Origin: Candidatus Poribacteria bacterium | GTDB taxonomy: Bacteria > Poribacteria > WGA-4E > WGA-3G | Direction of reading: 5' to 3' | Assembly (NCBI GenBank): GCA_022819945.1 | Contig: JAJEGI010000015.1 | Location: 120,865-184,864 of the forward strand | DNA length: 64,000 bases | Shown: piece by piece, positions 18,494 to 38,117 of the stretch | How positions within the stretch are numbered: position 1 is the first letter of the stretch | Layout: each line of letters starts with the position of its first letter | The notes under the pieces: model-generated | Database searches by the model: none | Seen by the model: the letters and a program-made list of their open reading frames with translations, nothing else | What the model was told of the DNA's origin: nothing | Position numbers and translations under genes: made by a program

Positions 18494-20305
18494 ATGAGAA
18501 AGATCTGTTTATTAGTTGCTGTCTGTCTACTAACATCAAATCTACTGTTATCTAATACTTTCGCGCAAGAACACACACAATGGGATTTACCTAAAGGCGC
18601 GAAAGCACGCTTCGGCAAAGGATGGGTCCGTGATATAAAATTTTCTCCTTTTGGTAGTCAATTAGCTGTTGCGACTACCATTGGGGTCTGGATCTATGAT
18701 GTCCGCACAGGGAAAGAATTGGCTTTGCTCTCAGGAATTGTTATGGGGGGTGCAAACTCGATTTCATATTCCCCAGGCGGTCTAATGCTTGCCTCTGCAC
18801 ATTGGGACCATACAATCAGACTATGGGATCTTAATGCCAATACGGATCGCCCAAGAACTACCTTTAGAAATCATACAGGCGAGATTTACACTGTCACGTT
18901 CTCACCGGATGGAAGCATGCTTGCTAGTGGGAGTGCTGACAAAACTATTCGGATTTGGGATCCTCACACTACTATTGACAGCGAAAAACAAATCTCAATT
19001 TTGCCGTATAGGGATTCCGTTAATTCCGCAGTTTTCTCTCCTGACAGCCAACTGTTAGCTGGTGGTAGTGAAGATGGCATGATCCACGTTTGGGATACAG
19101 GAACCGGCAACTTGGTGTATGAGTTTGATGGACATACTGACTCGGTTTGGGAAATTGATTTTTCACCAGATGGTAGAATTCTTGCCAGTGCCAGCCATGA
19201 CAGGACAGTTCAATTATGGAATCTCGTCGCACCCGGTGGCAGACTTACCGAACCGACACAACATACTATGCCTGTCTATGCAGTAGATTTCTCCCAGGAT
19301 GGACGAACTTTTGCGACCAGCGGAGCAGATAAGGAAATCCGAGTTTGGAATACTAACACCCGTGAGGTTACTTCTATTCTTGAAGGACACAATGATATAA
19401 TCCCAATTGTTGAATTATCACCAGATGGCACCACGCTTGCAAGTGGCAGTTTAGATGGAACTGTTCGTTTATGGGATATGAGACGTTCTCTAGATCGGTT
19501 AACACTTGCTGGACACACTGGTGGCGTTAAAGCATTGACATATACAGCGGATAATCGCATTCAAGCATGTGGTCCTGGATTAGATAACAAACTCCGATTG
19601 TGGGATGCGAGTACAGGCAAGCAGCTCACTAAGTTCGGTGAGCATAGAGGATTAACACAAGCAGTCGCCTTCTCTAAAAATGGCAAAAGACTTGCCAGTG
19701 CAGGAAGCGAAAACGGCACAATTTTTGTATCGGATATCTCCAACGCACTTGAAAACAACGATGACATTCTGGAAGCAACACTCACTGGAAATGCACTCGG
19801 CATCACTGCGTTAGCACTTTCACCCGCCGATACCACCCTTGCCAGTGGTGGAACTGATGGTAGGATTTATTTACTAAATGTTGATACGGGAGTTGAATTA
19901 AAAATTCTTAGAGGTGCTCAAGGAACTATTACTGCCTTGACCTTCTTCGCGGATGGCACTCATCTATTTAGTGGTGAAGAAAATGGAACTGTCCGACGGT
20001 GGGATGCTCTTACAGGTCAAGAAGTTTGGAATTACACAGGTTCGTTTAGTGCAATCACTGCGTTGGCATTTTCGGCAAATGGACGTTTCCTCGCTATTGG
20101 AGATAAGATAGGAAAAATTCGACTCTTTGATTTCGACGCAGAACCAGAGGTCCGCGAAAGCCGTATATTCACAAGTCATACCCGTAAGATAACTGCTCTT
20201 ATGTTTTCTCGAAACAGTGATACGCTTGTGAGTGGTAGTGAAGATGGTACCATTATTCTTTGGGATGTAAACGAAATCCTATCACAAGCAAATAATAATC
20301 AATAG
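18494..20305 (+). CDS. secreted WD40-repeat protein (paralog 1)
   Basis: Signal peptide ending NTFAQ; EHTQWDLPKGAKARFGKGWVRDIKFSPFGSQLAVATTIGVWIYD; many FSPDG...LASGS.D.TIRLWD blades. Confidence 0.92.
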   Translation: MRKICLLVAVCLLTSNLLLSNTFAQEHTQWDLPKGAKARFGKGWVRDIKFSPFGSQLAVATTIGVWIYDVRTGKELALLSGIVMGGANSISYSPGGLMLASAHWDHTIRLWDLNANTDRPRTTFRNHTGEIYTVTFSPDGSMLASGSADKTIRIWDPHTTIDSEKQISILPYRDSVNSAVFSPDSQLLAGGSEDGMIHVWDTGTGNLVYEFDGHTDSVWEIDFSPDGRILASASHDRTVQLWNLVAPGGRLTEPTQHTMPVYAVDFSQDGRTFATSGADKEIRVWNTNTREVTSILEGHNDIIPIVELSPDGTTLASGSLDGTVRLWDMRRSLDRLTLAGHTGGVKALTYTADNRIQACGPGLDNKLRLWDASTGKQLTKFGEHRGLTQAVAFSKNGKRLASAGSENGTIFVSDISNALENNDDILEATLTGNALGITALALSPADTTLASGGTDGRIYLLNVDTGVELKILRGAQGTITALTFFADGTHLFSGEENGTVRRWDALTGQEVWNYTGSFSAITALAFSANGRFLAIGDKIGKIRLFDFDAEPEVRESRIFTSHTRKITALMFSRNSDTLVSGSEDGTIILWDVNEILSQANNNQ

Positions 20306-20341
20306 ATTGAAAACAATTATAATGAATTTCATGGAGATATT

Positions 20342-21034
20342 ATGAGAAATCTGACGTTTTGTTTTTTGGTCCTGCTACCGTTGCTATTGGGGTGTGCCAA
20401 CTTAGGGCAGATGTTAAGTGAAACTAACGAAGATTATCATTTCCGCAAAGTGAGATGGGGTTTCAGTCGCGAGCGTGTGGAACTGGCGGAAGCCGGAAAC
20501 ACTATATTTGAAAGGAAAGACAACGCCATTGTTTATAAAGTGGAACTCAACGGAGTCTATTGTCGGCTCATCTATACATTCAAGGATAATAGGTTGCGGG
20601 CAGCGGGTTATATGACGATAACACCTATCCCGAATGCCGATAACCTCATCAAGGAAGCAGTTGACAAACATGGCATGCCGGAAACCAACCTAAAATACCT
20701 TGATGGACTTCAAGAAATGGTATGGAAAACGCCTGAAAAGGTGATATTTGCCAACCTGTTTCCTACTATTGAGAAGCGAACGTCTACACCCTATAACTAC
20801 TCCCGTAGAGGATTACTAAGGGATGTCGTACGCAACGAGTTGCCAGACCAAGAGGCAGGAAAGATTCAGTATTGGGATGGGACTTATGCACACGTGGATC
20901 CGGCTTTTTTTAATCAGCTTCATGAGGTAAATTTACCACTATCAGAGTTATCGTTTTATGAGAAACGGCTGATGGGTATTATTCTCAGGCGCGGTGGAAC
21001 AATTATTCCGGGGGTAGGGACGATTCCAAATTGA
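20342..21034 (+). CDS. putative lipoprotein, unknown function
   Basis: MRNLTFCFLVLLPLLLGCANLG lipobox; 37 nt after the WD40 stop. Confidence 0.75.
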   Translation: MRNLTFCFLVLLPLLLGCANLGQMLSETNEDYHFRKVRWGFSRERVELAEAGNTIFERKDNAIVYKVELNGVYCRLIYTFKDNRLRAAGYMTITPIPNADNLIKEAVDKHGMPETNLKYLDGLQEMVWKTPEKVIFANLFPTIEKRTSTPYNYSRRGLLRDVVRNELPDQEAGKIQYWDGTYAHVDPAFFNQLHEVNLPLSELSFYEKRLMGIILRRGGTIIPGVGTIPN

Positions 21035-21146
21035 AGATGCAATTATCCTGGTAACAGATGAACCGCCAACTGTACGAGTAAAGCATCGAGACCGAGGCAT
21101 TCAACACCCCAGCAGATGCCTTTTTTCGGATTATACTCGCCCGACC

Positions 21147-21168
21147 GGCGAGGTTAGGAAACCTCGCC
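21147..21168. repeat. perfect palindrome GGCGAGGTTAGGAAACCTCGCC (REP-like)
   Basis: 9-bp arms, between convergent genes. Confidence 0.7.
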
Positions 21169-21237
21169 TACCAAGTGACGAGAAGCGTAAATTTGGTTTT
21201 ACTATCCAGAATAAAATTCTTCAAAATGAGTGAACGA

Positions 21238-22008
21238 CTACTCTTTAATCACAAAGAATTTTTCCTCTTTAATCCGTTCTTCCGGGAAACGCGCACGCGC
21301 CCAGATCGCCTTCGAGTTCTCAATCATCTGTGGATGTCCGCAGGCGTAGACGACGGCGTTAGTGTGGTCATAGCCGAGTTGATCGCCGTACTTCCGAATC
21401 ACATCTTCGGCACGTCCGCTCTCACCTTCCCACTCAGTGTCCTCCCAGGGACGGCTCACTGTCGGGACAAACGTGAACCATTCCTCCTGCGCTGCGAGTT
21501 CGTTGAGTTCGTCCATATAATATCCGAGTTCCCACGAACGACTCGCGCCGACAATCGCTAAGATCTGATGTGGACTCGTTTTGCCCTGTTCCTGCTCAAT
21601 CTTTTGCGTCCGCGCAATACTGATATACGGTGCAGCACCGGTCACAGTTCCTGCCATGACATGGCGTGTCATACCGCTCTCTGTGTCCATCACGAATTTA
21701 CCGACGAGACGGTCCCGAATAAATACAGTGTCCCCCAACTCCAGTGCCCAAAATAGCGGCGTGGTTGCACCCTCTGGCACCAACTCCACGAAAACCTCCA
21801 TAAACGGTTCGTGTGGAGACGAGACTATCGAATACGGACGTTGGACGATCTTTCCGTCAACGTCAAAACCGATAGTAGCATACTGTCCGGGTATAAATGG
21901 CAACTGTTTATCAACACGGAATTTGAACGCTGCTAAATCTTCGGAAAAATCCTCACGTTCAATCAATTCACCTTTACAATATTGCGTCCTGGCGCGTCTT
22001 CTTTGCAT
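21238..22008 (-). CDS. FAD-binding oxidoreductase (ferredoxin-NADP reductase-like)
   Basis: FIPGQYATIGFDVDGKIVQRPYSIVSSP; VVYACGHPQMIENSKAI. Confidence 0.87.
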   Translation of the reverse strand: MQRRRARTQYCKGELIEREDFSEDLAAFKFRVDKQLPFIPGQYATIGFDVDGKIVQRPYSIVSSPHEPFMEVFVELVPEGATTPLFWALELGDTVFIRDRLVGKFVMDTESGMTRHVMAGTVTGAAPYISIARTQKIEQEQGKTSPHQILAIVGASRSWELGYYMDELNELAAQEEWFTFVPTVSRPWEDTEWEGESGRAEDVIRKYGDQLGYDHTNAVVYACGHPQMIENSKAIWARARFPEERIKEEKFFVIKE

Positions 22009-22186
22009 AATTAGTTCCTTTAAGCTTCCTCTAACAGATTTCGGCGCGTAATTTCTGCCGAAAAGAAAATCGTAGAATTTAGACTAACTCTGCATATATT
22101 ATACGCAAAACGCAAATGTATATCAAGTTTTTTTCTATGGCGATTAGCAATTAGCCGTCGGAAACTGTCAGCCATCAGTTAGATAC

Positions 22187-22215
22187 TTGCAATTCTGGTA
22201 CCCTTGTGCTAAATT
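22187..22215 (+). promoter_or_regulatory. sigma70-like promoter TTGCAA-N17-TAAATT upstream of the seven-gene WD40 run
   Basis: TTGCAA 22187-22192, TAAATT 22210-22215; TTGTGCTAAATT resembles TTGTGTGCTAAAAT of the 18303 promoter; ~176-nt leader. Confidence 0.5.
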
Positions 22216-22391
22216 ACAGTAGCAGCGCAGATACGGTCTGCACTATTTCGGGCACTCTTGTATTTAAGTCTGCCCCATTTTGTGCAGCACCGGTGATTAT
22301 ATCGCCAATAACCCGTCAAACAGCACCTTCAGATAGGCACAGAATTTGCAAATAAAAGATATAAAATCTCACCGGAAAAGGAATTTAGTAT

Positions 22392-24377
22392 ATGAAGAAA
22401 ATAACCTTTCTCTACAGCGTACATCTCTTTATTCTGTGTCTACTACTATCCAACGGTTTTGCACAACAATATACAGCACAGTGGCATTTGCCTGAAGGTG
22501 CGAAAGCACGTCTCGGTAGAGGGAAATTAAACAATGTCATATTTTCACCCGATGGGACCCGAATTGCTGTGTCAACAGCCATCGGCATCTGGGTCTATGA
22601 TGTGCAGACAAGGGAAGCCGTCTCACTGTTCGCGGAGATACAGACCGGCGAAAAGGAGAGGTTTTTGCCCTCAAAACCGCCGGAAGCACTAACGTTCTCC
22701 GCTGACGCGGTCCTTATTGCAAGTGCACACGGGAAGCGCATCTATATCTGGGATACTGTGACAGGTGCGGCGTTCGCGAAACTCGACGAACATCCCGATC
22801 CTATAACAGCGATTGCACTTTCACCCGACAGCACAAAACTCGCCACAGCAGGTGAGGACTGGGTGGTACGTTTATGGGATGTCGGGACCGGCAAATATCT
22901 CAACAGCTTGAAAGGACATCCCGGTGCCGTCAACGCACTTACATTTTCGCCTGATGGCAAAATCCTCGCGAGCGTGGGAACCACACTCCGTCTATGGAAT
23001 GCTAACACGGGTGAATTGTTACACGCTGATCATAAAGACTTAGGTTCCATTGACCGGCTCGTTTTTTCACCCGATGGTAAAATCCTTGCGGGAGCCGGCG
23101 GCTGGGACCGCGCTGTACATCTGTGGGATGTTAGCACACGCACCCTGCAAAAAACACCGAAGGGACATATCGGCGAAGTCAAAGATATTGCATTTTCGTC
23201 TGATAGTAAGACACTCGTCTCCGTGGGTTCTGACGCAATGCGACTCTGGGATGTTAGTAACGGTACCGAACTGAAGAGTCTACCGACACCACAAGACCAA
23301 ATACCACAACCCGTACCGCCCATCCTAAAACTTGAAGCGCTTAATCAGGCATACCTACCAAGCCGGCGGGACCATGTTTATTCAGCAAGATTTTCTGAAG
23401 ACGCGACACAACTCATCAGCGTCAGTCGCGACGGCAGTCTTCATCTTTGGGACGTTGAAACCGGACTTTACCGAGCATCCTTTGCCCTCGGCGCACATAG
23501 CGATTCAGTCGGTGTCCTTGCTTTCTCTGAAGATGGTAAATATCTCGCCAGTGATGATGGATTTGAGGAACGAATACGCGTTTGGAATGCCGAAAACGCC
23601 ACACAACACGCCGTCTTAACACCCGGACAAGAGGGAGTTCTTAACCCGCTCAGTGAACTAACGGTCTCTTCAGGCATCAAAAAAGTTGCCGGACGCGAAT
23701 TAGACGGTACAATCCTGGTATGGGACGCTGAAACCGCAGAGCATTTATCTGCTATACCGACTGACCGAATGATGCGGTACTGGCGACTTGTGCTTTCACC
23801 AGACGGGAAATTCCTCGCCGGTAGGGACATAATAGCGCGGAACAAGATTGAGCTTTGGCAAACGGAACCTGGTGCCCATCTGTTTACACTTGAAGATCAC
23901 GTAAGTCCGGTGACTGCCTACGCATTCTCGCCAAACAGCGAGCTCTTCGTGAGTGGTGCTCAAGATTCGACCACTGTTTTATGGGAGGTTAAGACAGGCA
24001 AACGACTTGCATATCTCATGGGGTACACAAAAATGCCCATCGGCGCGTTCGCCTTCTCCGCGGATGGGAACACGCTTGCCAGTGCGAGTGAAAATAAGAT
24101 CCTATTGTGGGATGTCAATACTCGGGAGCAGCGCAATAACTTTGAAGCCGTGGAGGGCATCGCTGCATTAGCTTTTTCTCCAGACGGAAGGACACTCGCA
24201 AGCAGCGGTGCCGATGGACTTATTCAAGTCTGGAATTTAGTGCCAACGCCGCAGGTCCAAACTACCTTCAGCGGACATCGAGGTTCTATTCACGTGCTGA
24301 TGTTCTCACCTGATGGTAAAACGCTCGCAAGCGGCAGTGGGGACGGCACAATCCTCCTCTGGAACATAGAACAGTAG
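22392..24377 (+). CDS. secreted WD40-repeat protein (paralog 2)
   Basis: LLLSNGFAQQYTAQWHLPEGAKARLGRGKLNNVIFSPDG...; ends SGSGDGTILLWNIEQ. Confidence 0.93.
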   Translation: MKKITFLYSVHLFILCLLLSNGFAQQYTAQWHLPEGAKARLGRGKLNNVIFSPDGTRIAVSTAIGIWVYDVQTREAVSLFAEIQTGEKERFLPSKPPEALTFSADAVLIASAHGKRIYIWDTVTGAAFAKLDEHPDPITAIALSPDSTKLATAGEDWVVRLWDVGTGKYLNSLKGHPGAVNALTFSPDGKILASVGTTLRLWNANTGELLHADHKDLGSIDRLVFSPDGKILAGAGGWDRAVHLWDVSTRTLQKTPKGHIGEVKDIAFSSDSKTLVSVGSDAMRLWDVSNGTELKSLPTPQDQIPQPVPPILKLEALNQAYLPSRRDHVYSARFSEDATQLISVSRDGSLHLWDVETGLYRASFALGAHSDSVGVLAFSEDGKYLASDDGFEERIRVWNAENATQHAVLTPGQEGVLNPLSELTVSSGIKKVAGRELDGTILVWDAETAEHLSAIPTDRMMRYWRLVLSPDGKFLAGRDIIARNKIELWQTEPGAHLFTLEDHVSPVTAYAFSPNSELFVSGAQDSTTVLWEVKTGKRLAYLMGYTKMPIGAFAFSADGNTLASASENKILLWDVNTREQRNNFEAVEGIAALAFSPDGRTLASSGADGLIQVWNLVPTPQVQTTFSGHRGSIHVLMFSPDGKTLASGSGDGTILLWNIEQ

Positions 24378-24513
24378 GAACAACTCTCTTATAAAACTTA
24401 GACGCATTTCAAAATTATGCCCCCTTTCCACTGCAAAATTGTGTCATTAATAAAAATTGTGTCATTAATAGTTGAATAGAATCATCAAAACGGACAAAAC
24501 GGAGATTCACGTT

Positions 24514-26466
24514 ATGAAAAAGTTCGGTCTTTTTTCTATAACCTTCCTGTTAGTTGCAGGTATCTTATCAAACGGTAGTCTCGCGCAAGACTATACACAC
24601 TGGAATTTACCCGAAAGCGCGATAGCACGTCTCGGGAAAGGTTCCATAAATGATGTAAAGTTTTCACGCGATGGTGATCTTTTAGCGGTGGCTACCAATA
24701 TCGGTGTTTGGTTGTATGATGTGCCTACCGGCGAGGAAATCCTGCTACTCAACAAAAAACCAAAAAACGTCGAAATAGTGGCTTTTTCACCCGGTGGCAA
24801 AACATTTGCTACTGGAAGTTGGGCACCGGAAGGCAGGATTCAACTATGGGACATTGATACCGCGACACAAACATCTACCATGGGTAAAGGTATAGGCGCT
24901 GTTGGTGTGTTAGCTTTTTCGGGAGACGGTGAAACGCTCGCAAGTGTGGGTTCCGGCAAAGGGACTCGGTTTCATGTATGGGATGCAAGCACAGGGAACG
25001 AGGTGTCGCATTTTATAGGGCAGCAAGTTTCAATCAAGGGTAGAGCGTTAGCAGTATCACCGAATCACCGTTTTGTTGCAAGTACGAATAAAAATAAGAT
25101 ATTTATATGGAATACAGGTACAGGCAACCTACAGCATATTATAGAAGGACGTGAGGAGCTCGCCTCGGCTTTGGTATTCTCACCAGACAGCAAAACACTT
25201 GTCAGTGGACACGCGACGATCCGGCTATGGAATGTAGAAACCGGAAATCAGATGTCCAGACTCGACGGACATACCCGTATCGTTAATGCCCTCACCTTCT
25301 CACGAGATGGGAAAACCTTAGCAAGTGGTGATTCCGGTGGCGACATCCGGTTGTGGGATATCGGGGCTGGAGGTGATCAACTTACGCTACCACGTCTGTT
25401 GGGCACGATTACCGATAAAAGTAAACCGCTACCTGACAAACGCGTCTTCACCGAGCATAAACGGCCCATTAAAGCTTTGGATTTCAACGCAGATGGTACA
25501 ACTTTGGTTAGTGCAAGTCGCGACAACACCATTAGGTTATGGGAGGTTGAGACCGGAAACTCACGCTTAATGACAGCAGGCCATACGGAACAAATTGTGG
25601 CACTCGGTTTCCTCAAAGATGGCAAAACGCTCGCGAGCGGTAGTTTCGATGCCACAATGCAGTTATGGAACACTGAGACCCAAGATCAGCAGCTTATCCC
25701 AATCAAACACCGGTCATTTGCTTTTAGTCTCGCTTTCTCTCAAGATGGCAAAACGGTAGCTATTGGGAGTGCTGGTAATAATGTGAAACTGTGGAATCCG
25801 GATACAGAAGACTTTTTCGCCACTTTCAAAACAGCACACAAGGGGTTTATTGATAAGATTGCATTCTCTCCAAACGACGAAATTCTTGTCAGTGGGAGTC
25901 GCGGTGGAACAATCGAATTATGGAAGGTGCTGAACCATGAACGGATCGCTATACTTAAAGGGCACACGGACGAAATTATAGCATTGACATTTTCACCCAA
26001 TGGAAAAACAATTGCGAGTGCAGGAAAGGGTGAAACGATAGTTTTATGGGATATTATTAACCTCGGTCCCAAAACCGCTTTGCTGGCGAAACACATTGCT
26101 GAAACTGGAGCATTGACATTTTCACCCGATGGAAAAACGATTGTCAGCGGGCACAGCGACGGCTCTATCTATTCATGGGATGTCGCAACCGGCAAGCAAC
26201 TCTCAATTTTCGAGGGAGATGCCGGGAACGTCACTGCATTGGCATTCTCCCGAGATGGAAAAATACTTGCAAATGGCAGCGCTGATGGTTTTATACAGTT
26301 ATGGGACACCAGCACAAGGACGCTGATACAAGGCGCATTACACAGACATGTCGGGCCTGTCAATAAACTCACATTTTCACCTGACGGTGCCATGCTTTTT
26401 AGCGGCGGTTCCGATGGCACAATCCTCGTCTGGGATCTAGAGAACATCCTTGAGAAAAATAGGTAA
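24514..26466 (+). CDS. secreted WD40-repeat protein (paralog 3)
   Basis: Preferred ATG 24514 (MKKFGLFSITFLLVAGILSNGSLAQDYTHWNLPESAIARLGKG); listed ORF begins 24472; ends SDGTILVWDLENILEKNR. Confidence 0.92.
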   Translation: MKKFGLFSITFLLVAGILSNGSLAQDYTHWNLPESAIARLGKGSINDVKFSRDGDLLAVATNIGVWLYDVPTGEEILLLNKKPKNVEIVAFSPGGKTFATGSWAPEGRIQLWDIDTATQTSTMGKGIGAVGVLAFSGDGETLASVGSGKGTRFHVWDASTGNEVSHFIGQQVSIKGRALAVSPNHRFVASTNKNKIFIWNTGTGNLQHIIEGREELASALVFSPDSKTLVSGHATIRLWNVETGNQMSRLDGHTRIVNALTFSRDGKTLASGDSGGDIRLWDIGAGGDQLTLPRLLGTITDKSKPLPDKRVFTEHKRPIKALDFNADGTTLVSASRDNTIRLWEVETGNSRLMTAGHTEQIVALGFLKDGKTLASGSFDATMQLWNTETQDQQLIPIKHRSFAFSLAFSQDGKTVAIGSAGNNVKLWNPDTEDFFATFKTAHKGFIDKIAFSPNDEILVSGSRGGTIELWKVLNHERIAILKGHTDEIIALTFSPNGKTIASAGKGETIVLWDIINLGPKTALLAKHIAETGALTFSPDGKTIVSGHSDGSIYSWDVATGKQLSIFEGDAGNVTALAFSRDGKILANGSADGFIQLWDTSTRTLIQGALHRHVGPVNKLTFSPDGAMLFSGGSDGTILVWDLENILEKNR

Positions 26467-26513
26467 ACGATCAGTCTGCCTTCGTAAATGATGCAGAGAA
26501 AAAGGAGAAAGAT

Positions 26514-28532
26514 TTGACAAAAAAGATTAAACTGTTTTCCATAGTCACCTTGTTGATTGCCGGGATTTTGTCGAACGGAAGTCTTGCACAAGATGACGGA
26601 GAATGGCGTTTTACTGAAGGCGCGAAAATGCGGCTCGGAAAAGGCAGAATAAACGACATCAAGTTTTCACCCGACGGCAGCCGCTTCGCAGTCGCAACAT
26701 CTATCGGTATCTGGATGTATGATGCGCACACCGGGGAAGAACTTTCTTTAATCGCCGTGCTTCCGGGCGAAGGACGCGATGTAACAACCATAGCATTTTC
26801 ACCCGATGGAAAAACACTCGCCAGCGGTGAGGAAGGCGGTGCCGGTAGACTGTGGGATGTAACCACAGGTAAACCTATCGCTACTTTCAAAGAGGTTCTC
26901 CGTCCGCGATACCCGGATCTTAGAGCACTCGTTTTCTCTGAAGATGGCACGAAACTTATAGGTGTAAGCTGGGATAACAAAATTAATATATGGGAACTTG
27001 GCGAACACACAAAACCACCAACTATTTTGCAGATGGATGGGCGGAAAGCGAGGCTGTCAACCTCTACATTGATGCAATTCTCAACAAATGGGAACCTCTT
27101 GGCAATTGCAGAGTTAGGTGAAGAATCATGGAAAAATAAAAACTTTACGATCAAATTGTGGGATGCTACAACCGGAAAACTCTCACATACTTTGACTGGA
27201 CACACACGCTGGATTAAGTCGATAGCATTCTCTGCCGATGGCAAGACGCTGGTGAGTGGTGATGAATACGAGACGGTTCGTCTATGGGATACGGCTACTG
27301 GAAAACTTAAGGCTACATTAAACTGGAGACGTGGCACTACAACCTACGCATTGGCGTTTTCGCCGAGTGGTAGGTTCATCGCGAGTGGACATCGTGAGGG
27401 TGTGAAGTTATGGGATAACACCGTCAAACCGAAACAGCAAGTGGATGACGCTATTGGCGATTATCAACGCACTTTAGAAATCCGTGGACATAAAGATTAC
27501 GTCTCTAAGTTGGCGTTTTCACCGGACGAAAGAACACTGCTCACTGGGAGTAAAGATGGTACAATACAAGCGTGGGATACCGCGACCGGTAGCCACCATT
27601 TTACGTGTCTTGGATATATCGAAGGCACCAAAGACTTGATGTTTACCGAAAAAGGAGATATCCTTTTAAGCCTGAACCAGCCATTCAATCCACCAGGGAT
27701 CTTACAGCAGCAACGATGGGACATCAACACAGGGGACCAACTGTCCACCAATTTTGGGGGGATAGATGCAGGCAATATGATACTGGCCCCGGACGGTAAA
27801 ATGCTCGTTACACACCCATTCGGTAACAAATGCTTTTTATGGGATATTAACACCGACCTGCCACGTATCATAGGTCAGTTTATTTTAAACGGGTATCCGA
27901 GGGACGGCTTGAATGTCAAATTCGCGTTCTCCGCAGATGGGAAAATGTTAGCAGCCGGTGGTGAAGACAACTTAGTGCGTATGTGGAAACTTAACGATTC
28001 CAAAGAGGTTCAGCATCGGTTTACAGTTAAAGGACATAAACATTGGATTCGTACGTTGGCGTTTTCTCCTGATGGAAAAATGCTGGCAAGCGGCGGTAAA
28101 GGCAAGACTCTCTGCTTGTGGCGTGTGGTAGATGGTACTTTGCTTTTTAAATCCACAGCACATAAATCGTGGGTCAGTGCAGTGACGTTTTCACCCGATG
28201 GAAAAATACTCGTAAGCGGCGGTCATGAAATCTTCTTCTGGGACACCGAAACCCGTACACAACTTCAGACAAACCCGCGTCAGTTAACTGCCCGGATCTC
28301 GACGCTCGTATTTTCACCAGATGGCAACACGCTTGTTGTTGGAAATTGGGACGGTATTCTTGAATTATGGGATGTTCGCACCGGTGGACTTTTGTCCACA
28401 CATACAGGACACACACGCTGGATTAACGTACTAAAATTTTCCCCAGATGGTAAAACGCTCGTTAGTTCCAGTTCTTGGGGAACAATCCTCCTCTGGGATT
28501 GGGAAACACTGAAGAAAATCGGTAATAGGTGA
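26514..28532 (+). CDS. secreted WD40-repeat protein (paralog 4)
   Basis: TTG start; ILSNGSLAQDDGEWRFTEGAKMRLGKGRINDIKFSPDGSRFAVATSIGIWMYD; ends GTILLWDWETLKKIGNR. Confidence 0.92.
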   Translation: MTKKIKLFSIVTLLIAGILSNGSLAQDDGEWRFTEGAKMRLGKGRINDIKFSPDGSRFAVATSIGIWMYDAHTGEELSLIAVLPGEGRDVTTIAFSPDGKTLASGEEGGAGRLWDVTTGKPIATFKEVLRPRYPDLRALVFSEDGTKLIGVSWDNKINIWELGEHTKPPTILQMDGRKARLSTSTLMQFSTNGNLLAIAELGEESWKNKNFTIKLWDATTGKLSHTLTGHTRWIKSIAFSADGKTLVSGDEYETVRLWDTATGKLKATLNWRRGTTTYALAFSPSGRFIASGHREGVKLWDNTVKPKQQVDDAIGDYQRTLEIRGHKDYVSKLAFSPDERTLLTGSKDGTIQAWDTATGSHHFTCLGYIEGTKDLMFTEKGDILLSLNQPFNPPGILQQQRWDINTGDQLSTNFGGIDAGNMILAPDGKMLVTHPFGNKCFLWDINTDLPRIIGQFILNGYPRDGLNVKFAFSADGKMLAAGGEDNLVRMWKLNDSKEVQHRFTVKGHKHWIRTLAFSPDGKMLASGGKGKTLCLWRVVDGTLLFKSTAHKSWVSAVTFSPDGKILVSGGHEIFFWDTETRTQLQTNPRQLTARISTLVFSPDGNTLVVGNWDGILELWDVRTGGLLSTHTGHTRWINVLKFSPDGKTLVSSSSWGTILLWDWETLKKIGNR

Positions 28533-28554
28533 TGACCTGAGATTAAAAAGGATT

Positions 28555-30657
28555 TTGAAAATGAAGAAATCTATACTTTTCTATATTGCCTTTCTGTTAG
28601 TTTTGGGGTTATTATTGTCAAATGGAAGCCTTGCACAAGACTATACGCAGTGGCAATTACCAGAAGGTGCGAAAATGCGCCTCGGAAAAGGCGTAGTAAG
28701 CGACATCACCTTTTCGCGGGACGGCACGCAATTCGCTGTTGCGACTACCATCGGGATATGGATATACGACACACACACCGGCAAAGAACTCGCACTCCTA
28801 ACCGGACACGAACGAGAGGTGAAAGCGGTGGAATACGCGCCCGATGGACGCACGTTCACCACTGTAGATGCTGGCGGCGAAACGCGATTATGGGATGCTA
28901 CCACCCATAAACGAATCTCCATTTTAACTGAACCCACAGATTTAGTTGAAAAGGTCACGCTCTCATCGGACGGCACGAGGCTTGTCACTGCCAACATGGA
29001 CGATACATTTCGGTTGTGGCATCTCGCCGATACCGATCAAGAACCGATCCTCATAAATGATACCGAGCAACACGTTTTAGCAATGGCACTCTCACCTGAT
29101 GGCAGAATCTTGGCAACTTCAAAAACACCACATCATAACACGATATCGCACCAGATCGAAAATTTCAGGCTACAGGTGTGGGATACTACCACGCAAGAGA
29201 TGTTGTTCAGTTTGCCGGGCGATACCGCACAGATTCATACCTTGGCGTTTCTAACCGATGGTAGAACACTTGTCAGTTCAGATATAGATGGAAAAACGCT
29301 ATTGTGGGATGTGGATACCGGTACCTCTCGACCTATCATCAAGGAAAATGAAGGTCGAACACGGACATTAGCACTATCGCTGGATGGCAAATACCTTGCA
29401 ACTGGAGACTCAGACGGAAACGCGCAATTGTGGGACATCACCACCGAAGCACAGCAACACGCACCCCGTCAAGTGTTCATGGGACACAGACATCGACATC
29501 GCGTTTTTGTATGGGCATTTTCGCCAGACGGCAAAACGCTTCTCACAACAAGCGAATCTGGGAATACCCGGGCGTGGGACACCGAAACCGGCAAACAACG
29601 CTTTACGATTACAGGACATATAGGGCCTATGCTGCATCTCACATTTTCTGAGACCGGTGATACCCTCACGAGTATAAATTCGCCCAACTCAAGTTGGCTC
29701 TGGGCGTACTTCCAGCACCGACAATGGGATGTCACGATAGGTAAGCCGTTATCCACCCATTTTTTAGAGGTAATGGGTGCAGAAAAAATATCACCCGATG
29801 GCAAAACGGTTCTCGTTGATCATCTTGACGGTACATTGGATATAACGGATATTCACACGAAGCGCACGCGTTCCACCTTGAAAGGGAATATGAAGGATGG
29901 GCTGAATGTCGAATTCGTGTTTTCCTTAGATGGTAAAGTGCTCGCAGGCGTGGGCAAAGATCGCATCATTCGCGTCTGGAAAAGTGAGCAATCCACTTGG
30001 CGACAGCTCTTTTCACGTTTACCTTGGGGACGCTCCTTTTTCGGGTCCAATCCACAGTTTACGTTTAAGGTCGATAAAAAAGATGGGTTCGGGGCGTTGG
30101 CACTCTCACCCGATGGAAAGATTCTGGCACATGCAAGAACACTGCCAAGGACAGTTAACACAACTGTCTATTTGTATAGCACAGAGACAGGCGAAGACCT
30201 TCGCACCCTAAAGGCGTTCACAGATCGTATCACCAATTTGGTGTTCTCACCAGACGGAAAGACCATCGCCGGTGGAAGCCGAGAAGCGATCCATCTGTGG
30301 GATACATCGACAGGGACACAGTTGCGGGTGTGTACACTCGAACGCCTTGCAGCAAGCGTAACGTTTGTATTTTCACCAGACGGCAAAATACTTGTTAGCG
30401 CTGTTAATGGAACAGTACTCGAATTTCCGGATGGCGCAGTTAGGACAGCAGGGGGCGGCTGGATAACCGAAACTACGAGTGCAAGAGGGAGTGGCGTTAT
30501 CCAACTCTGGGATACCCGCACGGGTGAACTACTCTCCTCGCACACGGGACATACAGAGAACATAAACACACTGGCGTTTTCTAAGGATCAGAAAACACTC
30601 GCAAGCGCAAGTGCAGACGGCACAATCCTCCTCTGGGATTGGGAAACACTTGAGTAA
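28555..30657 (+). CDS. secreted WD40-repeat protein (paralog 5)
   Basis: LLLSNGSLAQDYTQWQLPEGAKMRLGKGVVSDITFSRDG; ends SADGTILLWDWETLE. Confidence 0.92.
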   Translation: MKMKKSILFYIAFLLVLGLLLSNGSLAQDYTQWQLPEGAKMRLGKGVVSDITFSRDGTQFAVATTIGIWIYDTHTGKELALLTGHEREVKAVEYAPDGRTFTTVDAGGETRLWDATTHKRISILTEPTDLVEKVTLSSDGTRLVTANMDDTFRLWHLADTDQEPILINDTEQHVLAMALSPDGRILATSKTPHHNTISHQIENFRLQVWDTTTQEMLFSLPGDTAQIHTLAFLTDGRTLVSSDIDGKTLLWDVDTGTSRPIIKENEGRTRTLALSLDGKYLATGDSDGNAQLWDITTEAQQHAPRQVFMGHRHRHRVFVWAFSPDGKTLLTTSESGNTRAWDTETGKQRFTITGHIGPMLHLTFSETGDTLTSINSPNSSWLWAYFQHRQWDVTIGKPLSTHFLEVMGAEKISPDGKTVLVDHLDGTLDITDIHTKRTRSTLKGNMKDGLNVEFVFSLDGKVLAGVGKDRIIRVWKSEQSTWRQLFSRLPWGRSFFGSNPQFTFKVDKKDGFGALALSPDGKILAHARTLPRTVNTTVYLYSTETGEDLRTLKAFTDRITNLVFSPDGKTIAGGSREAIHLWDTSTGTQLRVCTLERLAASVTFVFSPDGKILVSAVNGTVLEFPDGAVRTAGGGWITETTSARGSGVIQLWDTRTGELLSSHTGHTENINTLAFSKDQKTLASASADGTILLWDWETLE

Positions 30658-30721
30658 ACGGATAATTGATAACGACGTTAGAGTTATAGCGTATTCTGAT
30701 ACGACAAAAAGGATTTTGAAA

Positions 30722-32503
30722 ATGAAAAAGTGCGGACTTTTCTATATTGTTTTATTGTTAATTTTAAATCTATTCCTGTCAAACCGAAGTCTCGCCGCCG
30801 ACTATACGCAATGGCACTTACCAGAAGGTGCGAAAATGCGGCTCGGCAAAGGCGAGATAAGTGATATTAAGTTCTCTCCTGATGGCAGCCTATTGGCTGT
30901 AGGTACAAGCATCGGGATTTGGATCTATGACGTTCAATCTCTAAAAGAAGTTGCCTTCTTGAAATCAGAGCTTCATCAGATAAACGCGATCACGTTTATT
31001 GATAACGGTGCAACACTCGTAAGCGCAAGTGAAGGTGGCATGATTTTAACTTGGAAAATCAGCACTGAAAGTCCTCTTATCAATCCGGCCCCTCCGAAAA
31101 CGCTTCGTCGATTATATGGCACCGGACATTTTTGGGGATCAGCATTGTCGAATGATGGCACCCAACTTGCTATTGGAGACGGAAGCGGTTCGATCAGTTT
31201 GTGGGATCTACGCACGGGCAACAAAATTTCCACCTTTAAAGCGCATTCGGATAGTATATATGGCTTAGCATTTTCACCCGATGGAAACACGCTCGTAAGT
31301 GGGAGTTGGGACTCAACGATTCATCTATGGGACGTTGCCACTCAAAACCGCCGCCAAACCTTAACTGGCTTATCTCATACGCATGCTTTAGCATTTAGTC
31401 CTGATGGGAAAAGCGTCGCGAATGGGAATTTTGGCGGCGGTCTTCAGTCTTGGAATCTTGAAACTCAACAAAAACTTGTTACATTCAAAGGACATACTGA
31501 TGCTATACAGGCAGTGACGTTTTCGCCAGATGGAAAAATGTTAGCAAGCGGTAGTTGGGATGCTACCATTCGATTGTGGGACACCCATACCGGTGACGAA
31601 ATCGGAATCATAACTGGGCACCCGCATTTCGTTGAGCAGATGGCATTCTCACCCAATGGAAAAACCGCCGCTGGTGCTTCCAGAGGTGTTATTCATTTAT
31701 GGGATGCTGATACCGGTAAAGAACTTTCTTCTACGAAGAGACATCACGGATTAATCAGAGAATTGGCATTTTCTAATGACAGTAATTCACTTGCCAGTGT
31801 GAGCATCGGTATCAGCCTCAAGGTTGTGGATGTTGCCACTAACCGAGAACTTTTTACACAAACTTTCAAAGGACATAAGAATAACGTCTGGTCAATCTCT
31901 TTCTCTCCGGACCGAACCGTGCTTGCAAGTGGTAGCCGAGGAAATAGGATCCGGTTGTGGAACGTTGCTGTTGGCGATCAACGGAAATTGATTCGCACTA
32001 ACCACAAAGAAGGTATTGGGGCATTAGCGTTTTCTTCTGACGGTACGCTGCTTGCTACGGGTAGTCAGGATGGCACAATTCAAGGATGGGATACTACCAC
32101 TGGTACAGAGTATTTTACGCTCCGTGGACATACGAAAAAAGTAGAGATGTTAGTATTTTCACCAGACGGAAAAATGTTGGCAAGTGGCAGCTGGGATGGC
32201 ACAATGCGTTTATGGGATATCGAAGCGAAAACCCAAATTTCTCAACGTGGCAGATTTATGGGCGGAATTATTGCCGTGCAATTTTCTCTTGACGGTAAAA
32301 CGGTTGTCTGTTCTACCCAATCAAAAGCAATTCAGTTGTGGAAAGTGGACAGCGAACGCCAGGTTCCATCTGCTATGCTCACCGGACATAACGGCTGGAT
32401 CAGAAATCTGGCATTCTCTGAGGATGGCAAAACGCTCGCAAGCGGCAGCGATGATGGCACAATCCTTTTGTGGGATTGGGAAAAAATAGACCCTGTTCAC
32501 TAA
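30722..32503 (+). CDS. secreted WD40-repeat protein (paralog 6)
   Basis: Preferred ATG 30722 (MKKCGLFYIVLLLILNLFLSNRSLAADYTQWHLPEGAKMRLGKG), with AAAAGGATTTTGAAAATG context identical to paralog 5; listed ORF begins 30611. Confidence 0.92.
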   Translation: MKKCGLFYIVLLLILNLFLSNRSLAADYTQWHLPEGAKMRLGKGEISDIKFSPDGSLLAVGTSIGIWIYDVQSLKEVAFLKSELHQINAITFIDNGATLVSASEGGMILTWKISTESPLINPAPPKTLRRLYGTGHFWGSALSNDGTQLAIGDGSGSISLWDLRTGNKISTFKAHSDSIYGLAFSPDGNTLVSGSWDSTIHLWDVATQNRRQTLTGLSHTHALAFSPDGKSVANGNFGGGLQSWNLETQQKLVTFKGHTDAIQAVTFSPDGKMLASGSWDATIRLWDTHTGDEIGIITGHPHFVEQMAFSPNGKTAAGASRGVIHLWDADTGKELSSTKRHHGLIRELAFSNDSNSLASVSIGISLKVVDVATNRELFTQTFKGHKNNVWSISFSPDRTVLASGSRGNRIRLWNVAVGDQRKLIRTNHKEGIGALAFSSDGTLLATGSQDGTIQGWDTTTGTEYFTLRGHTKKVEMLVFSPDGKMLASGSWDGTMRLWDIEAKTQISQRGRFMGGIIAVQFSLDGKTVVCSTQSKAIQLWKVDSERQVPSAMLTGHNGWIRNLAFSEDGKTLASGSDDGTILLWDWEKIDPVH

Positions 32504-32542
32504 AATAGATCGCACACAATTTTGTCGAAAAGGAGGTCAAAA

Positions 32543-34510
32543 ATGAAAAAACCATCTTTTTTTTTCACCGCATTGCTGTTAATATTGAACCTATTTCTAT
32601 CAAACGGATTCGCGCAGGATTACACGCAATGGCGTTTACCTGACGGCGCGAAAGCACGGATTGGTAAAGGAAAAATTAAAGACGTTAAGTTTTCACCGGA
32701 CAATACTCAGTTAGCAGTCGCAACCACAATTGGCGTATGGCTCTATGACGCACAAACCGGGGCAGAAATTGCACTATTAAAAGAACGTCGGCTTGGGCAC
32801 AGAACTGCAAATACACTTGCATTTTCACCGGACGGCAAAACGCTCGCAAGTGGACTTTGGCCCTATAGTGGCCCCATTCAGTTATGGGACATCACTACCG
32901 GCGAGAAGTCTGCTACTTTGGGAGTCGGAATCGGTACGATCAAAGCGATGACATTTTCTGGAGATGGTTCTCTGCTTTTTTGTGGACATTTACCCAGAGA
33001 CGCGAAGATTAAGATTAACGCATGGGAGATCGCTACTGGTCGTGAAGTGGTTAGCTTCTCCGGTTCACAAAAATCACGGAGTGGGCTTAATACTCCGTTG
33101 GTAATTTCGCAAGATGCGCGTTTTATGGTTGGTGCCAGTGATAATATTATCAGGATATGGGATGTAGATAAGAAAAAGTTACATCGTACGTTAAAAAAAG
33201 ATGCTGGTGTTCCGGATCGAAGCAGCCTTGCGCAGGCCTTGGCATTTTCTCCTGATGGGAAAACGCTTGCCTCTGGAAGAACGGCGCTCCGATTATGGGA
33301 CGTAGAGACGGGTAATGAATTAGTTAAACTCCCGGAGCAACCACGTGTTGTTGGAACCTTAGCTTTCTCACCGAATGGAGAAATTCTGGCAACGGGGAAC
33401 TACGCTGGCACAATTTTATTGTGGAATCTGCCCACACAGAACTATCTCTTTCCTGCAGCACTCGCGCACGGCACGCTACCCGTTTTATCTTTTGCATTCA
33501 CCACAGATAGCCAAACGCTGGCCAGTGGGGGCGCGGACGGAACCATCAGAGGATGGGATTTGACAAGCAAAAACCAACATCTAATGATACAGGGACATAC
33601 AGGAAATGTGCGAGGCTTACAATTTCTTGAAAATGGAACGACGCTTTTTAGTTGTGGAACTGATGGCACTTTTCGATATTGGCACTCTGAAACGGGTAAA
33701 GAGCGGTTAATTCCAACCGAACAGAAGTGGTATGTCTTTTCCGCTGCATTATCTAAAGACGGCAAAATGATTGCAAGTGGAAATGTAGATGGGTTAGTCC
33801 GTTTGTGGGATACCGCATCTCACACTATAATTGCTACCCTTACCGGGCACACTCACGGTAGTGTTATCAGGTTTTTGCAGTTTTCGGAAGATGGCAAAAC
33901 TCTTGGGAGTGCCAGTTTTCGAGGCGAAGCGATTGTTTGGGATGTACCAAATCGTAAACAACTCCATTCTTTACCCGGTGACCATTCAACTAATGTTAGA
34001 CCCTCAATATTTGCGTTCTCATCGGATCTGAAAAAAATTGCGTTCATCGGTTCAGGCAAAAAAATTCAACTGTGGGATATCAACGCAGATAAGGTATACA
34101 CCTTAAAAAGGGATTTATCCATCACAAACGTTTTCGCAAATCGGGATTTCAGAGCATTGGCGTTCTCACCGGATGGACGCACGCTGGCAAGCGGTAACTG
34201 GAGCGGCGATATTCATTTATGGGATACTGAAACGCATCGTCGTTTGACAGGTGTTATTGAGGCTAACGGGACTATGGATGCGTTGAAGTTTTCGCCGGAC
34301 GGAAGAACCCTTGCCAAAGGTGGCTCCCTGGGTTTTGTTGAACTATGGGATGTTGAAACAAGAACCCAGATTTGGTGGAACCATTCTGCACACGCCGACT
34401 CGGTCACTCACTTCGCATTTACACCGGATAGCAAGACTTTTGTCAGTGGAAGCGATGATGGTACAATCCTTCTCTGGGATCCGAAAAACATCGGGCACAA
34501 AGATAGATAA
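32543..34510 (+). CDS. secreted WD40-repeat protein (paralog 7)
   Basis: Preferred ATG 32543 with AGGAGG RBS; LFLSNGFAQDYTQWRLPDGAKARIGKGKIKDVKFSPD; ends SDDGTILLWDPKNIGHKDR. Confidence 0.92.
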   Translation: MKKPSFFFTALLLILNLFLSNGFAQDYTQWRLPDGAKARIGKGKIKDVKFSPDNTQLAVATTIGVWLYDAQTGAEIALLKERRLGHRTANTLAFSPDGKTLASGLWPYSGPIQLWDITTGEKSATLGVGIGTIKAMTFSGDGSLLFCGHLPRDAKIKINAWEIATGREVVSFSGSQKSRSGLNTPLVISQDARFMVGASDNIIRIWDVDKKKLHRTLKKDAGVPDRSSLAQALAFSPDGKTLASGRTALRLWDVETGNELVKLPEQPRVVGTLAFSPNGEILATGNYAGTILLWNLPTQNYLFPAALAHGTLPVLSFAFTTDSQTLASGGADGTIRGWDLTSKNQHLMIQGHTGNVRGLQFLENGTTLFSCGTDGTFRYWHSETGKERLIPTEQKWYVFSAALSKDGKMIASGNVDGLVRLWDTASHTIIATLTGHTHGSVIRFLQFSEDGKTLGSASFRGEAIVWDVPNRKQLHSLPGDHSTNVRPSIFAFSSDLKKIAFIGSGKKIQLWDINADKVYTLKRDLSITNVFANRDFRALAFSPDGRTLASGNWSGDIHLWDTETHRRLTGVIEANGTMDALKFSPDGRTLAKGGSLGFVELWDVETRTQIWWNHSAHADSVTHFAFTPDSKTFVSGSDDGTILLWDPKNIGHKDR

Positions 34511-34558: not shown

Positions 34559-36661
34559 GTGAAAAAAAATGGACTGTTTTTTATAATTTTCTTGTTGACT
34601 GTAGTCCTTTGGTCAAGCAAGAGTCTTGCGCAGAAGCATATACAGGGGCACTTGCCTGAAGGCGCGAAAATGCGCATTGGCAAAGGGGCGGCAAGTGACA
34701 TCACCTTTACCCCAGATGGCACGCAATTTGCCGTCACTACCAATATCGGCATCTGGATATATGATGCGAAAACGGGTGCAGAAATTACCTCGCTTAAGCA
34801 ACCTGACCGCGGTTACGGGAAAATAGCGTTCTCACCAGATGGGAACGTCTTCGCTTGCGCAACGGGCAGTAACGGACGTGGAGAGGTTCAGTTGTGGGAC
34901 AAAGTTACTGGCGAACTTATCACAACGCTACCGTCACCTACGGGCATCTCCTCTCTATTTTTTTCTGACGATGGCACGAAACTCGCCTGTGCAGGCTCTT
35001 TTGGACGTGTTCATGTATGGGAGATTAGCCCCGAAACACCTCCCGTGCTTGTTACAGATATAAGATTATATTTTGAAAATTGGAGTGAGCTTTGGCTAAC
35101 TGAACTCTCACCGGATGGACGTTTTCTTGCTATCACAATACCGAATTGGGAAGATAAAGACTTCTCAATCCAATTGTGGGATGGTAAGACAGGAGAACTC
35201 TGGCATACTTTGACGGGTCATAAACGCTCGGTTACTGCGCTAACGTTTTCACCCGATAGCAAGACATTAGTAAGTGGTGATGAATATGAAACAATTCGTG
35301 TGTGGGATACTGAATCCGGCAACCTACAATCGACACTGCGGTGGCGGGATCGCACTTCAACCCATGCGTTAGCATTTTCGCCGAAGGGTAGATTTCTTAC
35401 CAGTGGGCATCCGGATGTGGTTCGCTTGTGGCATTATACGGTTGGCGAGGGGCAACACTGGGATTATGCAATCGGTGACTACCAAAACATCATGGATTTA
35501 AAAGCACACAAAGACTCTGTTTACAGATTCGCATTTTCGCCTGATGAATTGACGCTGCTCACTGGTAGTAAAGATGGCACCATTATCGCATGGGATACGA
35601 CCACCGGGAACAAACGTTTTACGTGCGAAGGGCACGAGCAAGGTATCCAAGTTGTAGTAAGTTACCAAAAGTTCCATGTCGTTGCCCACAATCTGAACGA
35701 AACTGGAGACCTCAAGGCTGAATGTAAAGCGTACCTCGGTGAAGGTGTACGACTTGCGGATTGGAATGACATTCTCGACTATTACGAGGCAGAGGGCTCA
35801 ATGGCGGATTTCATCACTGAACTCAAAATACCGCTTGAGTATGGTAACCCCGGGGATATGGAAGCCATCCCGAACACCGGCTATCGTATTTCCAGGAACG
35901 GTGAACTGCGGTGGGGGAACGGAGATCGCCACTATTTCTTTGCTCGGCACGATCACGTCAAGCGAGCAGATTTTTTAGCACACGACAACATCGACAATTA
36001 CTTACTATCACTGGGTTCATGGTTCGGCAAGGGTGGCTTCGCACTCTGTTATGGGGACCTCAATAGCACAGAGCCGCCCCCGGAGCCAGAGGTCATTAAC
36101 ACCAACCAGATGGGGAACCGCTCCATGCCAGCTATTGTACCGAATACCGCCGAACCGGTGCTGACACCGGTAGTGAGTTACCAGAAGTTCCACGTCGTTG
36201 CCCACAATCTGGATGAGACGCAAGACCTCAAGGCTGAATGTAAGAAACAACTCGGCGCAGGCGTGCGACTTGCGGACTGGAATGACATCCTCGCCTATCA
36301 CCAGGCAGGCGGTTCAATGGCGGATTTTATCGCTGAACTCGAAATACCGCTTGAGTATGTTGATCCTGGGGATATAGAAGCTATCCCGAACGCCGGCTAT
36401 CGTATTTCGAGGAACGGTGAACTGTGGTGGGAGAACGGAAATCGCCACTATTTCTTTGCTCGGCACGACCGCATCAAACGAGCCGGTTTTTTAGCACACG
36501 ACAACATCGACAATTACTTGCTATCATTGGGTTCGTGGTTCGGCACGGGCGGCTTCGTACTCTGTTATGGAGACCTCAATAGCACGGTGCCACCGCCAGA
36601 TCCGCCAGAACCACCAGACGTTATTTTATCAACGCCTGACGCTCGACTGTTTGATCGATGA
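34559..36661 (+). CDS. chimeric secreted protein: WD40 N-terminal part fused to two tandem ~143-aa modules (paralog 8)
   Basis: GTG start with AAAAGGAG; N-part SLAQKHIQGHLPEGAKMRIGKGAASDITFTPDG...; after FTCEGHEQGIQ two copies of VVSYQKFHVVAHNL(N/D)ET.DLKAECK..LG.GVRLADWNDIL. Confidence 0.92.
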   Translation: MKKNGLFFIIFLLTVVLWSSKSLAQKHIQGHLPEGAKMRIGKGAASDITFTPDGTQFAVTTNIGIWIYDAKTGAEITSLKQPDRGYGKIAFSPDGNVFACATGSNGRGEVQLWDKVTGELITTLPSPTGISSLFFSDDGTKLACAGSFGRVHVWEISPETPPVLVTDIRLYFENWSELWLTELSPDGRFLAITIPNWEDKDFSIQLWDGKTGELWHTLTGHKRSVTALTFSPDSKTLVSGDEYETIRVWDTESGNLQSTLRWRDRTSTHALAFSPKGRFLTSGHPDVVRLWHYTVGEGQHWDYAIGDYQNIMDLKAHKDSVYRFAFSPDELTLLTGSKDGTIIAWDTTTGNKRFTCEGHEQGIQVVVSYQKFHVVAHNLNETGDLKAECKAYLGEGVRLADWNDILDYYEAEGSMADFITELKIPLEYGNPGDMEAIPNTGYRISRNGELRWGNGDRHYFFARHDHVKRADFLAHDNIDNYLLSLGSWFGKGGFALCYGDLNSTEPPPEPEVINTNQMGNRSMPAIVPNTAEPVLTPVVSYQKFHVVAHNLDETQDLKAECKKQLGAGVRLADWNDILAYHQAGGSMADFIAELEIPLEYVDPGDIEAIPNAGYRISRNGELWWENGNRHYFFARHDRIKRAGFLAHDNIDNYLLSLGSWFGTGGFVLCYGDLNSTVPPPDPPEPPDVILSTPDARLFDR
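35655..36600 (+). repeat. intragenic tandem module duplication (~35655-36082 and ~36170-36600)
   Basis: Near-identical DNA, e.g. AGTTACCA(A/G)AAGTTCCA(T/C)GTCGTTGCCCACAATCTG and CTATCGTATTTC(C/G)AGGAACGGTGAACTG. Confidence 0.95.
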
Positions 36662-36680: not shown

Positions 36681-38117
36681 TTACATCTCCGCCAACTTCT
36701 TCTGTAGCCACTTTGTCATCGGTGCGTATCCGGGATCGCAGACTTCAATGAAGTGTCCCGGTAAGGGTTGACCGATGAGTGCCTCGACATCCTGCCGTCG
36801 TTCAGCGACAACCGTCGGATGGTCACTCGCGACGTTCACCTTCTCCTCTGGATCGTTCCGGACATCAAAGAGTTCGTCACCGCTCTCATCGGTATAGCCG
36901 ACGGAGGTACAGAAGTTCCAGTGGTTATCGCGCACACTGACGCGTCCGCGCGCATTGCCGGTAGCAAAACCAGCCCAACCCGTGATAATCCGATTGCGGA
37001 GTGCTGCTTTCTCTTGCCTGACGAGTTGCCACATATCCTCGCCATCCGTCCAACCGCACGGGATATCCAGCAGATTCAGGAGCGTCGGCATCAGGTCGTG
37101 GTTCTGCACAAAAGCGGAAATGTCCCTGTCATTCGGGCCCTCTGGGTGCCGGATCATCAAGTTCAGCTGCGTATTGAACGGGTGTAGTTTGTTCGCGCCT
37201 TTCCCGAAGCTCCCGTGGTCCCGGAGTTGCGTGCCGTGATCGGACATCAGCACAACCAATGTTTCGTCTTTGATGTTCAGCTGCTCTATCTTATCAAGCA
37301 GTACACCGACCCATTTATCGACAAACGTGACCTCACCGAGGTAGAGTGCCTCGATTCGGCGGCGTTCATCTTCTGTGGGACCGTCGCCTTCGTTGGCACC
37401 GCCCGGTGTGATGAAATCTTTCCCAGAATAGTCAGGAAAATAGAGATCGGCATAAGACTTCGGTGGGTCCCACGGTTCATGGGGATCGAAACTATCCACC
37501 CATAAGAAGAACGGACCGACGGTGTGGTTATCCTGAAGCCAGTCAGCTGCAGCACGAAAGACACGCGCACAACTATAGTCATCTTCGGATTGGCGGTGTC
37601 GTTGACCGAGTAGATAGTTGACGAGTCCGGCGTGCCGCCGCCAATTGATCGGTTCACGGACATGGTTTCGGAGTTGTTCTTCAATTAATCTCGGATCGCC
37701 GCTCTGCCAGTTATCGGATTCCTGTCCACGGATGAAGTCGAAATGTGCGAACCCGCGCGAGAAATTCATCGTCGGCTTGAACATGTGATATGTATCGGCA
37801 ATGAGTGCAGTAAGGTAGCCGCGTTCGAGCAAGACCTCGGCAATCGTATCCTGTTCGGGTGGAATCTTATGCCAACCCGGGGCGTGATGCCAATGCCCAC
37901 GTCGGTCGAAATTGTATCTCCACGGGAAACTCCGCATCCCTGTAAAGTTGCCACGACGTATCTGAAGCGTCGGTTGCCCTTCGCCAAACGCGCGTGTAAA
38001 ACGGACAGACTCCGATGCCAATGCATCGAGGTTAGGCGTTTGTACGTGGCTATATTTCTTGCCTTCGCCGATGATGTCGGCACGGAACGTGTCTAAACAG
38101 ATACAGATGATATTCAT
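36681..38117 (-). CDS. sulfatase / alkaline phosphatase-superfamily hydrolase (sulfatase activity doubtful)
   Basis: MNIICICLDTFRADIIGEGKKYSHVQTPNLDALASESVRFTRAF; LVVLMSDHGTQLRDHGSFGKG; no CxPxR at the expected site (TLQIRRGNFTG). Confidence 0.85.
   Translation of the reverse strand: MNIICICLDTFRADIIGEGKKYSHVQTPNLDALASESVRFTRAFGEGQPTLQIRRGNFTGMRSFPWRYNFDRRGHWHHAPGWHKIPPEQDTIAEVLLERGYLTALIADTYHMFKPTMNFSRGFAHFDFIRGQESDNWQSGDPRLIEEQLRNHVREPINWRRHAGLVNYLLGQRHRQSEDDYSCARVFRAAADWLQDNHTVGPFFLWVDSFDPHEPWDPPKSYADLYFPDYSGKDFITPGGANEGDGPTEDERRRIEALYLGEVTFVDKWVGVLLDKIEQLNIKDETLVVLMSDHGTQLRDHGSFGKGANKLHPFNTQLNLMIRHPEGPNDRDISAFVQNHDLMPTLLNLLDIPCGWTDGEDMWQLVRQEKAALRNRIITGWAGFATGNARGRVSVRDNHWNFCTSVGYTDESGDELFDVRNDPEEKVNVASDHPTVVAERRQDVEALIGQPLPGHFIEVCDPGYAPMTKWLQKKLAEM

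Follow-up and report, generated by a model that had tools for sequence, protein, structure and literature searches.

At the 3' end of a WD40 array in the analysed window, a stretch of 64,000 nucleotides from a Candidatus Poribacteria genome, lies a gene that encodes a chimera of a single WD40 propeller and two copies of an undescribed 139-aa domain, for which we coin the name ADWND module. This module probably defines an undescribed domain family, a view that we hold with good confidence: its stand-alone members would be multi-Sec proteins with a (Gly-Sec/Cys)n tail and a SECIS element by the true stop, and its WD40, TPR-protease and membrane forms would be free of the selenium tail. For the window protein itself we prefer, at a probability of about 0.5, the reading of an exported scaffold in which one propeller is kept and two undescribed domains replace the second, with the module binding a ligand and with a selenoprotein as its stand-alone form. 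A role in host contact is proposed for the WD40, TPR and LRR proteins found in sponge symbionts, and little is known of the cargo that they carry besides their repeats. The recurrence of one domain absent from the libraries on WD40, TPR and LRR scaffolds thus provides a defined target.

Table 1. Features of the chimeric gene and its surroundings in the window.
Feature	Position (nt)	Strand	Evidence
Upstream array, seven WD40 paralogs	18494..34510	+	ORF list, alignment
Paralogs within the upstream array	18494-20305, 22392-24377, 24472-26466, 26514-28532, 28555-30657, 30611-32503, 32522-34510	+	
Whole chimeric gene, 700 aa	34559..36661	+	ORF list, GTG start; unbroken orthologues in 12/13 loci (L031-L043)
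Export-type signal, hydrophobic N-terminus, aa 1-25 (predicted)	34559..34633	+	hydropathy peak aa 1-19; cleavage site by eye
Seven WD40 repeats, one propeller, aa 26-365	34634..35653	+	PF00400; paralog alignment, WD motif positions
ADWND module copy 1, aa 366-504	35654..36070	+	no library match
Inter-module linker, aa 505-537	36071..36169	+	copy comparison
ADWND module copy 2, aa 538-676	36170..36586	+	83.5% identical to copy 1
Pro-rich C-terminal tail and stop	36587..36661	+	no conserved read-through past UGA
Sulfatase gene, marker of the conserved locus	36681..38117	-	Pfam PF00884, E 3e-33; adjoins the module in 13/13 loci

The WD40 part of the gene is a member of Pfam PF00400 (E 8e-30, 102 bits against a cut-off of 27). 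As the sequence-only reading had proposed, the ORF at 34559-36661 tracks paralog 4 (26514-28532), its best match among the paralogs, at 48.7% identity over aa 2-364 (E 1e-108), and switches near 35650: the first module starts at aa 366, nt 35654. The duplicated module of ~143 aa that this reading had described is likewise present, as two copies of 139 aa, the second from aa 538 (nt 36170). Identity between the copies is 83.5% at the protein level and 86.8% at the DNA level, with a dN/dS of 0.21, and module and 33-aa linker together give a repeat period of 172 aa. It had further held that C-terminal blades were replaced. The replacement stands and its extent does not: the longer paralogs have ~14 WD repeats, by a count made partly by eye, against seven in the window gene, so that the whole second propeller appears to have been removed by the exchange and a complete first one left. 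Across the module and propeller comparisons dN/dS ranges from 0.14 to 0.27, and the chimera is under purifying selection. Most chimeras also share an ending like ILSPPxxQLLD(Q) (36587-36658 in the window; L031-L043), perhaps a sorting or docking signal.

A scan of public bacterial and archaeal genomes recovered 38 module loci in Poribacteria and one in a Ca. Binatia genome. The WD40-module fusion is old and fixed at one locus in 13 Poribacteria assemblies (L031-L043): there the module adjoins the sulfatase gene and pyrF, and argH too where the contig reaches, with WD40 paralogs upstream of it in most of these loci. The fusion is unbroken in 12 of them, one being the single-contig chromosome OX639973.1; in the other, the frame of the chimera orthologue (L041:5235-6486) looks broken between the WD40 part and the module. 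Because repetitive WD40 arrays are easily misassembled, the junction at 35650 could be an assembly artefact; its recurrence across independent MAGs and in the single-contig chromosome leaves this a negligible probability, and the chimeric assembly against which the sequence-only reading had warned did not appear. The chimera might also be a non-functional remnant, formed when a decayed WD40 paralog ran into a neighbouring module gene, as the apparently broken frame in one locus of 13 might suggest. This is highly improbable given the 12 unbroken loci, the dN/dS far below 1 for modules and propeller alike, the signal peptide and the retention of a whole propeller.

The 16 module rows that are linked to WD40 group together in a maximum-likelihood tree, in a clade with support 100/99; hence, a single fusion event is most likely. 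The second copies of the three double-module chimeras group in a separate clade, in a weakly supported position next to the other rows, and the doubling of the module may therefore be old and have been lost later in the other chimeras. The earlier picture of a terminal cassette with a new domain holds in this form: at the array's 3' end, a domain outside all libraries has been fused, with a single origin, to a WD40 scaffold. The effector or binding role proposed for this domain is putative.

By sequence, the ADWND module belongs to no family in Pfam, NCBIfam, PHROGs or the PDB, in agreement with the initial failure to recognise it, and the sequence libraries gave no confident match to a characterised domain fused to WD40. 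Several candidate relatives were set aside: 3h3e, with a phmmer match (E 0.003) that was gone once a profile was used; AGOG, with a weak match in four of 32 members (best E 0.0056) and no other support; and DUF1566/Lcl_C, no such family being found in 30 relatives. A phage or plasmid origin was also rejected, with no phage match, one plasmid match at chance level and none confirmed in viral contigs.

The claim that the module occurs in no other gene is true of the window and of the whole 5.8-Mb assembly, in which both matches of a sequence search fall within the window ORF, and fails for the genus, where relatives are common. A profile search found the module in 34 of 85 Poribacteria genomes, in two genera of one family only; in Binatota, the phylum of the Binatia genome, two of 297 genomes matched, one with an LRR fusion (L069/L116) and the other with a remote relative, L117. 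By these searches the module appears to be confined to two Poribacteria genera and rare Binatota relatives, phyla beyond these two being covered by a scan for near-exact peptides, then tblastn. L117 (reverse strand, G162:C235) is a 154-aa lipoprotein-like protein present in one of the 395 genomes searched with it; it has the motifs RLAxW, RRYFxERHD and LGSY..LCY in common with the module, but differs from it in being shorter, at about 113 aa, and in the lack of any fusion and the lack of a conserved Trp in GSW.

The module is a portable domain: elsewhere in the phylum it occurs on other scaffolds, in tandem and in genes of its own. The sequence-only reading had anticipated neither this spread nor the apparent selenoprotein nature of the stand-alone form. 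The following forms are observed: the WD40 form, with one or two modules after the propeller; the stand-alone form, of ~161 aa as annotated, and a tandem pair; the form with a trypsin-like peptidase and TPRs (L068, L110-L112); the membrane form, in which transmembrane segments flank one or two modules (L100-L109); and the LRR fusion (L069). In L052, L053, L059, L061 and L063-L066, WD40 genes flank the stand-alone gene on one or both sides. All 66 modules compared share twelve invariant residues of polar or aromatic type, including H12, R33, D36, D39, R92, H93, R98, H99 and H110.

The WD40 scaffold as such is ordinary for the phylum, going by the part of the account of Kamke et al. (2014, PMC3909097) drawn on here, which describes abundant, often exported WD40, TPR and LRR proteins in Poribacteria and proposes a role for them in host contact. 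The window protein has the same type of scaffold, and that part of the account names no such non-repeat module. It does report a Por-type C-terminal sorting domain on many poribacterial repeat proteins (PMC3909097), from which the module differs by family search.

AlphaFold gave a pLDDT of 89.7 and a pTM of 0.86 for the module when run on a diverse alignment, and a pLDDT of 64 on near-identical sequences. In a Foldseek search of the PDB the first matches were nearly all C-type-lectin-like chains (best E 0.099, TM 0.25-0.43, with TM above 0.5 as the threshold for a fold-level match), and in the viral set the two best matches to the model were herpesvirus UL45, which we take to be C-type-lectin-like itself. 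A Cys in the first helix and another in the last strand, both present in 58 of 66 modules, are placed as the outer disulfide of the C-type-lectin-like fold. In comparison to C-type-lectin-like domains (PF00059 and kin), the module shows a similar succession of predicted strands and helices, and its two near-invariant Cys occupy comparable sites, but it has no Pfam match or profile kinship, and a TM of about 0.4. The model with its Foldseek matches points weakly to a C-type-lectin-like fold, which is somewhat more likely than not. Against it, none of the 32 module members matched PF00059 in Pfam at E<=5, and hhalign found no kinship with the Lectin_C domains of the phylum, giving a probability of about 0.1% against eleven genuine poribacterial examples. 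Canonical PF00059 domains are found in 25 of 30 Poribacteria genomes searched, with up to 17 matches each, and in none of 14 control genomes; they often lie in gene arrays (G003:C108 23675-31061; G005:C1 4.92-4.93 Mb; G000:C28 25667-28878 and C151 in the own genome).

Nearly every stand-alone module ends, as annotated, in -SGG and then UGA. At L053:6466-6489, and at the same place in L044-L067 and L172-L194, an in-frame UGA is combined with G-C/U-G-C-stop and a SECIS-like hairpin. The codons past the UGA are conserved (GGC TGC GGA TGC TAA), and the variants (TGC/TGT, GGC/GGT, insertions of 6 or 9 nt) keep frame and meaning, with tails read as SGGUGCGC, SGGUGUGCGC, SGGUGUGUGG and similar. L052 has Cys codons in place of UGA, which gives the tail RGCGCGC, and lacks the hairpin; across the stand-alone relatives, UGA is paired with Cys codons in homologues and the frame is kept to a later stop. 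A reading of -SGG as a ubiquitin-like or processing tail was dropped because the frame runs on past the UGA. The hairpin of the UGA-type copies is of the type GCARTGGC-GGT-GCCATTGC, with the loop GGU, an 8-bp stem and an MFE of about -11 kcal/mol; the loop lies 18, 24 or 30 nt past the UGAs (23 and 33 nt once each), and 99.5% of cells in the stem pair, with modest covariation. At 18-33 nt from the UGA it falls within the published bSECIS model, namely: a loop of 3-9 nt, a G in the first two loop positions, a distance of 16-37 nt from the UGA and an MFE <= -7.5 (PMC13188914). These sequence features strongly indicate that the stand-alone module is a selenoprotein in which UGA encodes one to three Sec within a C-terminal G-(U/C) tail.

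The T run that follows the hairpin in several loci would suit a different view, in which translation simply stops at the UGA, the hairpin acts as an intrinsic terminator and no selenocysteine is made. The loci that adjoin WD40 genes, however, have no T run, and L052 combines Cys codons with the lack of a hairpin. Against an ordinary stop also speak the conservation of frame, Gly/Cys meaning and UAA past the UGA through TGC/TGT swaps and 6- or 9-nt indels, and the position of a 1-nt deletion only after the UAA (L061/L176). Moreover, the retrieved loci contain 168 distinct ORFs of 150 aa or more that end in TGA, and 25 of these have an extension made up solely of Gly, Cys and UGA codons. A motif identifies 24 of the 25 as module genes, and the remaining one (L173) is a module-gene tail; among these ORFs, such an extension is a feature of module genes only. 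We therefore consider the ordinary stop unlikely. A portable seleno-tail on other proteins was also rejected: in 83 genomes the tail DNA pattern marked 23 module-gene sites and three other sites without a hairpin, against three matches of the reversed-pattern control.

tRNA-Sec scores above the cut-off in 73 of 83 genomes (76.3 bits in the own genome), and in L163 and L169 it adjoins a selB match that is partial, cut by the locus ends and below the curated cut-off. The Sec machinery, as tRNA-Sec and partial SelB, is thus present in most of the genomes; an exception is G071, which has a UGA tail and no strong tRNA-Sec match. The selenobacteriocin family TIGR04081, with 'SGUG' and 2 Sec (PMC13188914), resembles the stand-alone modules with their SGGUGUGC tails in having several Sec with Gly neighbours; the latter differ in carrying the tail behind a ~145-aa domain, and a tailed protein, with Sec passed as Cys, had no NCBIfam match at E<=10. 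Our literature search found no paper linking Poribacteria and selenoproteins, and none of the 119 families in a 2026 inventory has the architecture of the stand-alone module. With the module outside every library searched, the stand-alone form would be a new selenoprotein family, and it adds a probable selenoprotein family to the Poribacteria. The interchange of Sec and Cys codons at up to three positions with one hairpin further offers a natural series for the reach of a bacterial SECIS.

The tail is absent from the chimeras, the membrane forms and the trypsin-TPR forms. Past the UGA of the chimeras there is unrelated sequence with no SECIS hairpin, and the window gene appears to be a secreted relative that lacks the selenium tail. 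In the ligand-binding reading, the window protein would be exported, as suggested by hydropathy; its propeller would be a rigid platform that displays two modules outside the cell; each module would be a small ligand-binding domain, perhaps C-type-lectin-like, with a putative ligand outside the cell that is plausibly host-derived; and the tandem copy may raise avidity. Against this reading, the stand-alone forms lack a signal, which suggests that the same domain works inside the cell too.

The main rival to a binding function casts the module as an enzyme, or as a redox domain that binds metal, with an invariant His/Arg/Asp site, the Sec/Cys tail as a redox relay and the WD40 form acting outside the cell. 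The twelve residues invariant in 66/66 modules are denser than a variable binding face needs, and Sec/Cys tails are usually involved in redox or metal chemistry; the module nevertheless has no sequence kinship to any enzyme, its first Foldseek matches include no enzymes, and the exported and membrane forms are without the tail. We regard this alternative as possible, at a tentative level.

Where the module precedes the trypsin-like peptidase and TPRs (L110, L111, L112 and L068), the gene neighbourhood is conserved, with an iron-sulfur protein, a GFO/IDH/MocA oxidoreductase and a TPR protein. The stand-alone modules L044, L046, L050, L051, L055, L056 and L067 make up a second class of neighbourhood: in their vicinity a DUF5916/CBM9 protein, a zinc alcohol dehydrogenase and GNAT acetyltransferases are found.
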